DNA from: an uncultured Bacteroidales bacterium
Lineage (GTDB): Bacteria; Bacteroidota; Bacteroidia; Bacteroidales; Paludibacteraceae
Length of the DNA stretch: 64,000 nucleotides
Assembly (NCBI GenBank): GCA_946406195.1
Contig: CAMJJT010000002.1
Span: 1 to 64,000 of the forward strand
Direction: 5' to 3'
Translations under genes and position numbers: made by a program
Part shown: positions 992 through 6,278 of the stretch, one piece after another
How positions within the stretch are numbered: the first letter of the stretch is position 1
Layout of the letters: each line of letters opens with the position of its first letter
The notes under the pieces: generated by a model
Database searches by the model: none
The model's input: the letters and a program-made list of their open reading frames with translations, nothing else
Told to the model about the DNA's origin: nothing

Positions 992-1120
992 GGTTCTTGG
1001 AAAGCTGCACACTTGAACAAGAACGATTAACCAAAGGAGAAGCAAAATGCTCATGCGTTAGCGTGAGCTTTTCCCGTGTAAATTGGTTAATCAAGGTAGT
1101 GCAGCAAAACCTCAAGAACC
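992..1120 (+). ncRNA. Candidate structured RNA with four nested inverted repeats
   Basis: GGTTCTTG(992-999)/CAAGAACC(1113-1120); GCTGCAC(1004-1010)/GTGCAGC(1099-1105); GATTAACCAA(1025-1034)/TTGGTTAATC(1083-1092); GCTCATGC(1049-1056)/GCGTGAGC(1061-1068). Confidence 0.55.
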
Positions 1121-1125
1121 TGTTG

Positions 1126-1150
1126 AAGCGAAAAGTTTCACGCTTTTTAT
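1126..1150 (+). terminator. Candidate intrinsic terminator after the structured RNA
   Basis: AAGCG-N10-CGCTT followed by TTTAT. Confidence 0.5.
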
Positions 1151-1481: not shown

Positions 1482-2276
1482 ATGACACAGCAAGAACTAA
1501 CTGCCTTAAATCCTTGGGCAAAATATCCCAATTTCAAAGGTATGAGCTATCGTTTTTATTACGAAGATACAGACCTTATTCATCCATTAGATAAAGAAGT
1601 CGTAGATGAATATAATAATGGGAGGGCACGGCAATATTGTTTTGAACGTCATGTTCCACCCTTCCCGTTTCAAGGCAATCCGTTTTGCGCAAAAGTAGTA
1701 TTTCTCAGTCTGAATCCGGGATTTGTAGAGCGTATTAATAAAGACGCAGCTTTGTTGCTTGAACAAACCAAAACATGTATCTATGTGAACGATATATGGC
1801 ACCAACACATGATTCATGGCTCCACTTCTATGTTCCCACCGATAAACCAGACAGATCAATATACAGCATACCAACTTCTCCAAGATTGGTATTGGGAAGA
1901 TATGTTGGCTTCTTTGCGCAAAGATTGCAAGCTGAATACTGATATTTTTAACGAACGCATTGCACTTATCCAGTTAATTCCGTATTCATCCACAGCTTGC
2001 AATAAAGCTATTATAAATCTCCCGACACAGCAATACACAAAACAACTGATACACTATTTGCTAGAGCAACCCTATGGACCTTTGTTTGTCGTTATGCGTA
2101 GTGAACCGGAATGGGCTAAATTACTGAGTATTGACTTTGAGGATTCAAAATACAAGCATCGCTTCATTCTGCGCAAGCGAGATAAACAAGGTCATCGTCC
2201 GCGCAGTCAGTTTATTAGCGAAAACGCTTTTACGGATAGTGGCTATCAAAAGATAATAAACAAAATCAATAATTAA
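1482..2276 (+). CDS. Hypothetical protein, possible uracil-DNA-glycosylase-like fold
   Basis: 264 aa; 'VVFLSLNPGF' motif plus late 'LFVVMRSEPEW'; family call tentative. Confidence 0.5.
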   Translation: MTQQELTALNPWAKYPNFKGMSYRFYYEDTDLIHPLDKEVVDEYNNGRARQYCFERHVPPFPFQGNPFCAKVVFLSLNPGFVERINKDAALLLEQTKTCIYVNDIWHQHMIHGSTSMFPPINQTDQYTAYQLLQDWYWEDMLASLRKDCKLNTDIFNERIALIQLIPYSSTACNKAIINLPTQQYTKQLIHYLLEQPYGPLFVVMRSEPEWAKLLSIDFEDSKYKHRFILRKRDKQGHRPRSQFISENAFTDSGYQKIINKINN

Positions 2277-2288
2277 AATTATAAGAGT

Positions 2289-3050
2289 ATGAAAAAATTA
2301 ACTACATTAGCAATCATTATTGCCATCTCAACGTTCTGTGTTGCACAGAAAAGTATTACAGAAATTACTGGCGGGGAAATTCTTTGGGGTTGGACAGAAG
2401 ATTCTTATATTGCCTTTCCTGATTACGATGGAACTATTAACTACACGTACGACCAAGTAAATGCTATTCTTCAAGGAGATGTTATACGCGCTAAGGGTTT
2501 GCAATCAAAATACCAGACCCCTTTACAGCAAGAAGCCTTTGCTCAATCACCAGAGGCGGCAAAACTCAAGAAAGAATTAGAGGAAGAGAAGAAATACATT
2601 AAATCCAGTTTATGTAGTATTGAGTATCAGTGTGAAGACTTAAAATATGATGCAAAGTTAAAGGCGTTCGTATGGAATAAAATGTATAGTGATATTAGAT
2701 TTTATCAAGAGACAGGTTATTTCTGTGCTGGAAAATTTATGATTTCATATCCGCAACAACTATTTACTATACAAGGGGAAGACTACGGAAATAGAGGCTA
2801 CTATTATAGACAAATATTCCGTTTACCGACATTGCCCATTGAAACGGCTTTAAAAATAGAAGAAAATATTAAAGATGTACGCTTGTTGTTCGTGGGAAAA
2901 TTTGTCCGTTCAAAAGTAGTAGATGATGATAAAATTTGGAAAAGGGAGTACCTTTATTTCAAAGCGACTAAAGTATATTTAATCAATAGAACGGGAGAGA
3001 TGGAAATATATGCAGACTTAACTACAAAATTATTCCCTCCGAAGAAATAA
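2289..3050 (+). CDS. Secreted hypothetical protein
   Basis: Signal peptide MKKLTTLAIIIAISTFCVAQ. Confidence 0.6.
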   Translation: MKKLTTLAIIIAISTFCVAQKSITEITGGEILWGWTEDSYIAFPDYDGTINYTYDQVNAILQGDVIRAKGLQSKYQTPLQQEAFAQSPEAAKLKKELEEEKKYIKSSLCSIEYQCEDLKYDAKLKAFVWNKMYSDIRFYQETGYFCAGKFMISYPQQLFTIQGEDYGNRGYYYRQIFRLPTLPIETALKIEENIKDVRLLFVGKFVRSKVVDDDKIWKREYLYFKATKVYLINRTGEMEIYADLTTKLFPPKK

Positions 3051-3053
3051 CTT

Positions 3054-3398
3054 ATGACAAAAAGATTGTTTTTCATAGTATTTATAGCATTTGCTATATT
3101 GAATATAGCAACAGCTTCAGATGTCACGATTGACAAAGAAAATTGTACGATTACCAAGGATGGCAAGACTTATTATCTGTATGGAAAGGTAAAGATTGTT
3201 GATTCGTTTGAGGACATCAAAGTCAAAATCGTAGATGCCTTTGAAGACGCAGATATCAAAATTGTGGATGCCTTTGAGAACTCATGCGGCAAAGTGAAAA
3301 TAGTTGAGCATTTTGAAGATGTCAAAGTGAAGATAGTAGATTCCTTTGAAGATATAAAAATCAAGATAGTTGATGCTTTCGAAGGAATAAAGGAATAA
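3054..3398 (+). CDS. Secreted 11-residue-repeat protein (KVKIVDSFEDI)
   Basis: Signal peptide followed by six degenerate KVKIVD(S/A)FED(I/A) units. Confidence 0.65.
   Translation: MTKRLFFIVFIAFAILNIATASDVTIDKENCTITKDGKTYYLYGKVKIVDSFEDIKVKIVDAFEDADIKIVDAFENSCGKVKIVEHFEDVKVKIVDSFEDIKIKIVDAFEGIKE
3186..3395 (+). repeat. Coding tandem repeat, 33-bp unit, about 6 copies
   Basis: KVKIVDSFEDI/KVKIVDAFEDA/DIKIVDAFENSCG/KVKIVEHFEDV/KVKIVDSFEDI/KIKIVDAFEGI. Confidence 0.8.
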
Positions 3399-4121: not shown

Positions 4122-6278
4122 ATGGCTAAAGTTTATCAAGCATCTGAGATCAAGAACGTCGCTATGTTAGGCGGCTCGGGATCGGGTAAAACGACTCTCA
4201 TGGAGTCGATGTTGTTTGAAAGCGGGGTGATTAAACGCCGCGGTTCGATTGAGCAGCAATCCACCGTGTGCGATTATTTCCCGGTAGAGAAAGAGTACGG
4301 CTACTCCGTCTTCTCCACAGTTTGTAACATTGAGTTCGAAGGCAAGAAACTGAACGTGATCGATTGCGCAGGTTCAGACGATTTCTGCGGTGGAACCGTG
4401 GCAGCACTTCAGATGTGCGGCTCGGCACTCATCGTTCTCTCCGCTAACGGCGGCGTGGAAGTGGGAACGCAGAACAACTTCCGTCTCGTTGAGAAAGCAC
4501 ACAAACCGCTCGCATTCGTCATCAATAAATGCGACCACGAGAACGCAGACTTCGAGCGCACGTACGCGCAATTAAAGGAGAACTTTGGCAATAAGTGTAC
4601 GCTGATCCAGTTCCCGGTGAATGCCGGAGCAGGTTTCAACGCAGCGATTGATGTCCTCAAGGGCAAAATGCTCGTTTGGAAAGCAGAGGGAGGTGCTCCT
4701 GAGTTAAAAGATATCCCCGCTGAGTATGCAGACAAAGTAGAGGAAATGCGTCAGGCACTTCAGGAGCAAGCAGCCGAAGCAGACGAGACGCTATTGGATA
4801 AGTTCCTTGGCGAAGGTCTGACCGACGAGGAGATTATGCAGGGTCTGAAGAGCGTTTATGCAGACGGTTCGATGTATCCGGTTATCTGCTGCTCGGGTCT
4901 CAAAGATATGGGTGTTCGTCGTCTCATGGACTTCCTGAACGGTATGGCTCCGAGCCCTGCTCAGTTCAGTTATCCGACGGTTGATGGCAAGAAGATCAGT
5001 CCGGACGCATCGGCTCCGACGAGTCTGTATGTCTTCAAGACATCCGTTGAACCGCACATCGGTGAGGTGAACTATTTCCGCGTAATGCAGGGAACCGTTC
5101 GTAACGGCGATGATCTTCTGAACATGGAGCGCGGCTCGAAAGAGCGTATCTCGCAGCTCTATCAGGTAGCCGGTTCGATTCGTACTGCCGTAGATGAACT
5201 GCAGGCAGGTGACATCGGTGCTACTGTGAAGCTCAAAGATACCCGTACGGGTAACACGCTGAATGCGAAAGAGTGTGATAACCAATATGCTCCGATCGTT
5301 TATCCGCAGCCTCGTTACCGCCGTGCAATCAAGCCGGTGACTGAGTCCGATGCAGAGAAACTGGCAGCTCTTCTGACTCGTATGCACGAGGAAGATCCGA
5401 CTTGGGTAGTAGAGCAGTCCAAAGAGCTCCGTCAGATGATCGTTTCCGGTCAAGGTGAGTTCCACCTGCGTACCCTCAAATGGCGTCTGGAGAACAACGA
5501 TAAGATGATGGTTGAGTTCCTTGAGCCGAAGATCCCGTATCGTGAGACGATCACCAAGGCTGCTCGTGCCGACTATCGTCATAAGAAACAATCCGGTGGA
5601 GCCGGTCAGTTCGGTGAGGTTCACTTGATCGTGGAGCCGTACGAGGAAGGCATGCCGGTTAAGGAGACCTATAAGTTTGGTAATCAAGAGTATAAGATCT
5701 CTGTAAAGGATCAGCAGGAGATCAACTTGGAGTGGGGTGGTAAACTCATCATCATCAACTCCATCGTCGGCGGTGCTATCGACGCACGTTTCATTCCGGC
5801 TATCGTAAAGGGTATCATGGATCGTATGGAGCAAGGTCCGTTGACCGGTTCATATGCACGCGACGTGCGCGTCATTATTTATGATGGTAAGATGCACCCG
5901 GTTGATTCGAACGAAATCTCCTTCCGTCTGGCAGGACGTAACGCGTTCGCACAAGCCTTCAAAGAGGCGAACCCGAAGGTCCTCGAGCCGGTTTATGACC
6001 TCGAAGTCTTCGTTCCGTCGGAGATCATGGGCGATGTGATGTCGGACATCAACGGTCGTCGCGGTATGGTAATGGGTATGGAGACTGAGAAGTCCTTCAC
6101 TCGCCTCAAAGCACAAGTGCCTTTGAAAGAGCTCTCGAGCTATTCGACAACTCTCTCGTCGCTGACCGGTGGACGTGCTACCTTCACGATGGCATTCAAC
6201 TCGTACCAGCTCGTTCCGGCAGATGTTCAGGAGAAACTCCTTGCTGCTTACGCCGCTTCGCAAACCGAAGAAGAGTAA
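4122..6278 (+). CDS. fusA2: Elongation factor G-like protein (EF-G2 type)
   Basis: Full-length EF-G domains; atypical G motifs GGSGSGKTT, DCAGSDDF, NKCD. Confidence 0.85.
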   Translation: MAKVYQASEIKNVAMLGGSGSGKTTLMESMLFESGVIKRRGSIEQQSTVCDYFPVEKEYGYSVFSTVCNIEFEGKKLNVIDCAGSDDFCGGTVAALQMCGSALIVLSANGGVEVGTQNNFRLVEKAHKPLAFVINKCDHENADFERTYAQLKENFGNKCTLIQFPVNAGAGFNAAIDVLKGKMLVWKAEGGAPELKDIPAEYADKVEEMRQALQEQAAEADETLLDKFLGEGLTDEEIMQGLKSVYADGSMYPVICCSGLKDMGVRRLMDFLNGMAPSPAQFSYPTVDGKKISPDASAPTSLYVFKTSVEPHIGEVNYFRVMQGTVRNGDDLLNMERGSKERISQLYQVAGSIRTAVDELQAGDIGATVKLKDTRTGNTLNAKECDNQYAPIVYPQPRYRRAIKPVTESDAEKLAALLTRMHEEDPTWVVEQSKELRQMIVSGQGEFHLRTLKWRLENNDKMMVEFLEPKIPYRETITKAARADYRHKKQSGGAGQFGEVHLIVEPYEEGMPVKETYKFGNQEYKISVKDQQEINLEWGGKLIIINSIVGGAIDARFIPAIVKGIMDRMEQGPLTGSYARDVRVIIYDGKMHPVDSNEISFRLAGRNAFAQAFKEANPKVLEPVYDLEVFVPSEIMGDVMSDINGRRGMVMGMETEKSFTRLKAQVPLKELSSYSTTLSSLTGGRATFTMAFNSYQLVPADVQEKLLAAYAASQTEEE

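Follow-up and report, generated by a model that had tools for sequence, protein, structure and literature searches.

What is the long, irregular hairpin that lies between a DUF3791/DUF3990 gene cassette and a series of hypothetical genes in the genome of an uncultured Bacteroidales bacterium (Paludibacteraceae)? The window analysed here comprises the first 64,000 nucleotides of contig CAMJJT010000002.1; the element, its parts and its immediate gene neighbours are all on the forward strand. The original prediction saw a candidate new structured RNA followed immediately by a terminator, and considered a retron-like msr-msd, an element-associated RNA or a stand-alone small RNA (sRNA). We find that the element is one copy of a previously uncatalogued family of structured RNAs, which recurs in hundreds of Bacteroidales genomes. 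With reasonable but far from complete confidence, we regard it as a new type of cis-acting 5′ leader of Bacteroidales that regulates the accessory genes immediately downstream, many of them genes for exported proteins.

In the window copy, the nested stems are found exactly where they had been predicted. The strand from 992 to 1146 folds with a minimum free energy of -54.8 kcal/mol, compared with -34.2 +/- 3.7 kcal/mol for 200 dinucleotide shuffles, none of which reached so low a value (z = -5.6), and a wider stretch (980–1165) yields a z of -5.4. Helix P1 joins GGTTCTTGG (992–1000) to TCAAGAACC (1112–1120), as judged by the fold and an arm-swap test. In P2, defined by alignment and fold, the 5′ strand GCTGCACACTT (1004–1014; CTGGACACTT in the consensus across the family) pairs with positions 1094–1097 and 1099–1105 of the 3′ strand AGGTAGTGCAGC (1094–1105), which carries a single A as a conserved bulge. 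P3 joins GATTAACCAA (1025–1034) to TTGGTTAATC (1083–1092), both arms being defined by fold and arm swap, the former also by alignment. The linker between P2 and P3, GAACAAGAAC (1015–1024), may form an alternative hairpin with the 5′ arm of P1, as judged by a linker complementarity test. The structure is topped by the apical hairpin GCTCATGC-GTTA-GCGTGAGC (1049–1068; stem about 1049–1056/1061–1068), the most conserved sequence of the family. It includes the strand AGCGTGA (1060–1066), for which we propose a long-range pairing with the complementary TCACGCT (1138–1144); the latter is part of a weak hairpin, AAGCG..CGCTT, with a U-tract (1126–1148). A further, outermost helix of AAAAAGCG and CGCTTTTT was rejected, since by eye it shows no covariation in AGCAT-type copies.

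P1 and P3 are conserved helices, and compensatory change is the decisive evidence for this. Among 81 distinct arm sets, most of them from copies whose P2 sequence is canonical, the P1 arms are 97.9% paired within a copy, compared with 57.7% after exchange of the 3′ arm for that of another copy; for P3, the values are 99.7% and 51.9%. Almost every position of both helices shows all four types of Watson-Crick pair. Likewise, RNAalifold, applied to an alignment of 18 copies, returned P2, P3 and the apical stem, with changes on both sides in most P3 pairs. In many copies, the linker repeats the 3′ arm of P1 imperfectly, and pairing between the linker and the P1 5′ arm is possible; this complementarity extends over 5.56 nt for a copy's own linker, compared with 4.33 nt for the linkers of copies with another P1. 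At the far end of the element, the T tract is preceded by a CACGC strand that complements GCGTG in the apical hairpin. Changes on both sides are found in several divergent copies, and in long-apical variants the local fold leaves the GCGTG strand free. A swap test of this pairing yields 6.11 versus 5.93 of 7 pairs, a weak difference because the sequence is so conserved. We regard the long-range pairing as likely, if not proven.

This pairing also bears on the predicted terminator. The motif AAGCG-N10-CGCTT-TTT is indeed present as a sequence, and 99 of 105 copies continue into a T tract; the hairpin itself is weak and its function uncertain. In relatives, the hairpin before the T tract has a mean energy of -4.0 kcal/mol, compared with -2.6 kcal/mol when shuffled. 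Of 79 distinct copies, only 44 have a stem that extends as far as the T tract, and one Flavobacterium-like copy (L316) has a broken tract. From the sequences, a conserved long-range pairing with the apical hairpin would seem to account better for the CACGC strand than a terminator does.

The family is large. With blastn, we found a second full copy in the window's own genome and further copies in many genomes of the same genus. A covariance model built from 18 aligned copies detects relatives in 165 of 178 same-genus genomes and in 76 of 393 Bacteroidales genomes, spanning 50 of 206 genera, whereas only two other genomes were positive in a sample of 395 from the phylum; most of these genomes are metagenome-assembled (MAGs), and because the copies are mutually related, the counts are not independent. 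Copy number reaches about 16 per genome within the genus (Paludibacteraceae-type gut MAGs), and the window's own genome, which is 82% complete, holds two strong and four weaker, partly longer copies. A pattern scan returned gut and rumen MAGs that are labelled Paludibacteraceae or Bacteroidales, as well as Flavobacterium poyangense and F. defluvii; the same kind of scan found no copies in IMG/VR, and no similar DNA was found in plasmid and phage collections. In a cmscan search, Rfam gave no match to the window at the gathering threshold and none over the element even at E<=5 (850–1300, and the Flavobacterium locus L132), and in the open literature, supplementary files aside, we found no description of this RNA. 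The prediction of a new structured RNA is thus borne out: covariation, on which it was to stand or fall together with Rfam, is massive, the family is multi-copy, and no known Rfam family was matched. An RNA carried by almost all genomes of a gut and rumen genus and by roughly one in five of the sampled Bacteroidales genomes, yet missing from Rfam, would rank among the commoner unannotated regulatory RNAs of this order.

Two observations may be added here. One is a long-apical subfamily of the same RNA (195–233 nt), found in the window's own genome (G000:C14:19581-19813, G000:C13, G000:C29) and in relatives (L271, L274, L280, L282, L283, L285, L286, L308, L310), with upstream promoters and often with genes for exported proteins downstream. 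The other is a CRISPR-DR5 match at L132:7325-7362, which at 28.8 bits is below the gathering threshold and probably due to chance.

The conserved element is longer than the predicted hairpin. It begins at the stop codon that ends the upstream gene and extends almost to the next ATG (840–1171), and blastn alignments of the window element to many copies start at 838–846 and end at 1148–1171. Upstream, Pfam identifies a DUF3791 fragment (3–155) and a DUF3990 gene (152–625; ADP-ribosyltransferase-like), followed by a 73-aa gene without a Pfam match (622–843), the end of which is the start of the element. Downstream, a gene of 100 aa (1177–1479), with neither a Pfam match nor a signal peptide, is followed by further cargo without Pfam matches (1482–3398; the first of 264 aa), of which two genes (2289–3050 and 3054–3398) have signal-peptide-like N-termini on direct reading. 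The latter encodes a small protein with repeats of the VKIVDSFEDIK type. An EF-G-like GTPase gene lies downstream near an element copy both in the window (4122–6278) and in a second genome (G060, copy L042), which suggests a shared insertion hot spot.

Across the family, the placement of the element is strongly oriented. The nearest ORF downstream runs in the same direction as the element in 64 of 67 copies, again mostly ones with the canonical P2; its start lies at a median of about 120 nt past the 3′ strand of P2. By a simple hydrophobicity rule rather than a trained predictor, 46 of 74 downstream genes (62%) have signal-peptide-like N-termini, compared with 83 of 303 (27%) in the background (p = 4.6e-8) and with 6 of 49 upstream genes. 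The downstream Pfam families include BspA-type LRR, WG repeats and Por-secretion tails, and in Flavobacterium a SusC/SusD-like operon follows the element. Furthermore, the Bacteroidota promoter TANNTTTG, likewise identified by simple rules and often preceded by TTGCATAT, clusters 25–125 nt upstream of the element, with 50 sites compared with about one expected per 25-nt bin.

Because the downstream gene is close and co-directional and the local terminator weak, we favour a cis-acting leader over a stand-alone sRNA. As such a leader is transcribed, the 5′ arm of P1 would first pair with the linker, before P1, P2 and P3 form. The apical GCGTG strand could pair with the CACGC strand before the U-tract, in competition with the small terminator-like hairpin, and in this way the RNA might tune the level of transcription or translation of the cargo in answer to some trigger. 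Some findings speak against a leader. No promoter box was found just upstream of the window copy, and its RNA is therefore probably made by read-through from the DUF3990 operon; its first downstream gene lacks a signal peptide; the U-tract hairpin is weak, with the tract broken in L316; and the swap test lends the long-range pairing little weight. If the leader reading holds, an element that fronts such fast-changing accessory genes offers a handle on how gut Bacteroidales switch them on.

Known attenuation leaders, such as riboswitches and ribosomal-protein leaders, resemble the element in their fixed orientation upstream of genes, their conserved core, their variable, covarying stems and, as proposed here, alternative pairings near a U-tract. 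Unlike them, the element is tied to no single pathway, but precedes diverse accessory, often exported cargo, is present many times in a genome, moves as part of cassettes and has no match in Rfam. Such diverse cargo is unusual for a metabolite riboswitch.

A stand-alone sRNA was among the suggestions of the original prediction. In the form considered here, a trans-acting RNA transcribed from its own promoter up to the U-tract, with an incidental downstream gene, it is an unlikely alternative, to which we still assign more weight than to any other. It would account for the promoters upstream of many copies and for the T tract that nearly always follows, but it does not explain why the downstream genes are so close, so consistently co-directional and so enriched in exported products. 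Moreover, the hairpin before the tract is weak, the window copy has no promoter of its own, and in some copies a possible helix, P4, spans the T tract; for the latter, partial support comes from the formation of six out of six pairs in 25% of copies, compared with 7% after swapping.

A different perspective is opened by the mobility of the element. L074 and L077 have a common 2.5-kb unit of 97.7% identity, which consists of the element and three cargo genes and is flanked by unrelated sequence; similar units of element and cargo are shared between L036 and L228 and between L043 and L230, and the same element and cargo are found behind differing upstream genes. On these sequence comparisons, leader and cargo appear to move together as shuffled cassettes, and the suggestion of an element-associated RNA is thus partly right, in that the RNA travels with gene cassettes. 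An apparent insertion of the element into a DUF3990 gene (L140) turned out to be a deletion in the upstream gene pair.

It is conceivable, if rather improbable, that the element acts at the DNA level, as a folded recombination site or junction that allows cassettes to be exchanged on either side, in the manner of an integron attC site. It abuts the stop and start codons of its neighbours, the same units of element and cargo stand behind different upstream genes, the upstream genes are often cassette-like toxin-antitoxin genes, and P3 contains hardly any G-T pairs (3 of 648). Integron attC sites are likewise imperfect palindromes of variable sequence and conserved structure between cassette-like genes. 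Against this, none of 41 genomes sampled from the genus has an integron integrase above the TIGR02249 cut-off, no tandem arrays were seen in the loci read, and the element's own promoter and its strict orientation towards the downstream gene are leader-like. The apical stem, by contrast to P3, is rich in G-U pairs, as expected of RNA, and the shuffling is accounted for by ordinary homologous recombination among the repeated copies.

Within otherwise near-identical cassettes, whole stems have been exchanged: P3 was wholly replaced between L154 and L170 (the rest of the element being 97.5% identical) and between L228 and L036, and P1 and P3 jointly between L044 and L176 and between L074 and L077. 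The additional differences between L154 and L170 are confined to the tract from P3 through the apical hairpin to P3′ and to the 5′ module, with none from P2′ to the start of the cargo, a pattern that fits gene conversion between copies. Such conversion probably swaps P1 and P3 as neutral stems. A more far-reaching reading, which we consider improbable, takes P1 and P3 to be actively rewritten specificity tags that are read by a trans-acting RNA or a nucleic-acid-guided protein; during the spread of a cassette, both variable helices, for one of which the linker holds a third copy, would then be replaced in complete complementary blocks, and Bacteroidales would gain programmable control of shuffled surface-gene cassettes. 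Two further ideas were rejected: that P1 and P3 are orthogonal within genomes, as they are shared within genomes to the same degree as between them, and that they guide insertion, as they match their own upstream and near downstream flanks no better than those of other copies. In these wholesale swaps of complementary stems, nature has left a clear trace of gene conversion, or of some stranger process, at work on an RNA structure.

The upstream side of the element has its own bias. Toxin-antitoxin and KilA-N/Bro-N/RhuM/ORF6N genes are strongly over-represented directly upstream of the copies; where the upstream gene is co-directional, it often resembles a toxin-antitoxin or antirepressor gene (DUF2442, RhuM, Bro-N, KilA-N, HepT, PIN, Zeta, YafQ, DUF1016), and DUF3990-type genes precede several copies. 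For these reasons, the element might belong to an upstream toxin-antitoxin unit, as a 3′ RNA partner or as a stabilizer of the toxin transcript. We deem this very unlikely, since the upstream genes come from unrelated families, the nearest one is oppositely oriented in 21 of 67 copies, and many copies have their own promoter downstream of the upstream gene. A type III toxin-antitoxin RNA was rejected as well: the copies read are single structured units without tandem repeats, and no ToxN/AbiQ-like toxin is among the 25 most frequent Pfam families of downstream genes.

The least probable reading by our estimate, an RNA-guided DNA element akin to the IS110/IS1111 bridge (seek) RNAs, which are likewise structured RNAs of mobile DNA with two variable paired segments, could draw on P1 and P3 as programmable guides that change wholesale and stay Watson-Crick complementary, but the variable segments are helices that match their own flanks no better than others, the differences inside the swapped L154/L170 tract fit gene conversion, and no IS110 recombinase was found in the window's own genome (G000), in G570 (11 copies), in G169 (13 copies) or in G568, while the only one in G569 is on another contig than the element. 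The retron-like msr-msd of the original prediction is likewise not supported: retron RNAs share the long hairpin and the nested, multiple stems, but no reverse transcriptase (RVT_1) was found in the window's own genome, in the multi-copy genomes G570 and G169 or in G569, and those of G568 are on contigs other than that of its element. Finally, palindromic candidate RNAs of Bacteroidetes have been reported from human microbiomes (e.g. HMP2_1032 and HMP2_4205; PMC8040213), some of them predicted as terminators near particular genes. By description, rather than by sequence, they resemble the element as long palindromic intergenic RNAs of Bacteroidetes.

The regions on either side of the leader's main hairpin hold several smaller features. 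Near the 5′ end, a module of the form CGTC..GACGTTAAAC..GAG (849–880) may form a small H-type pseudoknot, with pairings assigned by eye. The motif is found 60–158 nt before P2 in many copies, with variable loops and 3′ partners; it recurs as CGTC-N-YYTCC-N-GACGTTAAA-N-GGARGACA, and loop and 3′ partner seem to vary together. It is followed by a small hairpin, ATCGG..CCGAT (884–905), seen on direct reading and with similar counterparts in relatives such as L020 and L191, and by a GCCTATG motif (932–943; exact copy at 929–948), which marks the edge of shared cassettes in several relatives. This motif contains a possible two-codon mini-ORF, ATG GCA TAA (935–943). A mini-ORF of this kind (ATG, one to six codons and a stop, after CCT) is also possible in 56 related 5′ modules, in which an in-frame stop occurs within seven codons in 93%, compared with 68% and 39% in the other frames. 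On the 3′ side, a motif CGGAGT..GCCGAAAATCCG..GAGTAGGC, which is absent from the window copy, lies downstream of P1′ in L010, L011, L014, L015, L074, L078, L088 and others, where it may form a pseudoknot just before the start codon of the cargo.
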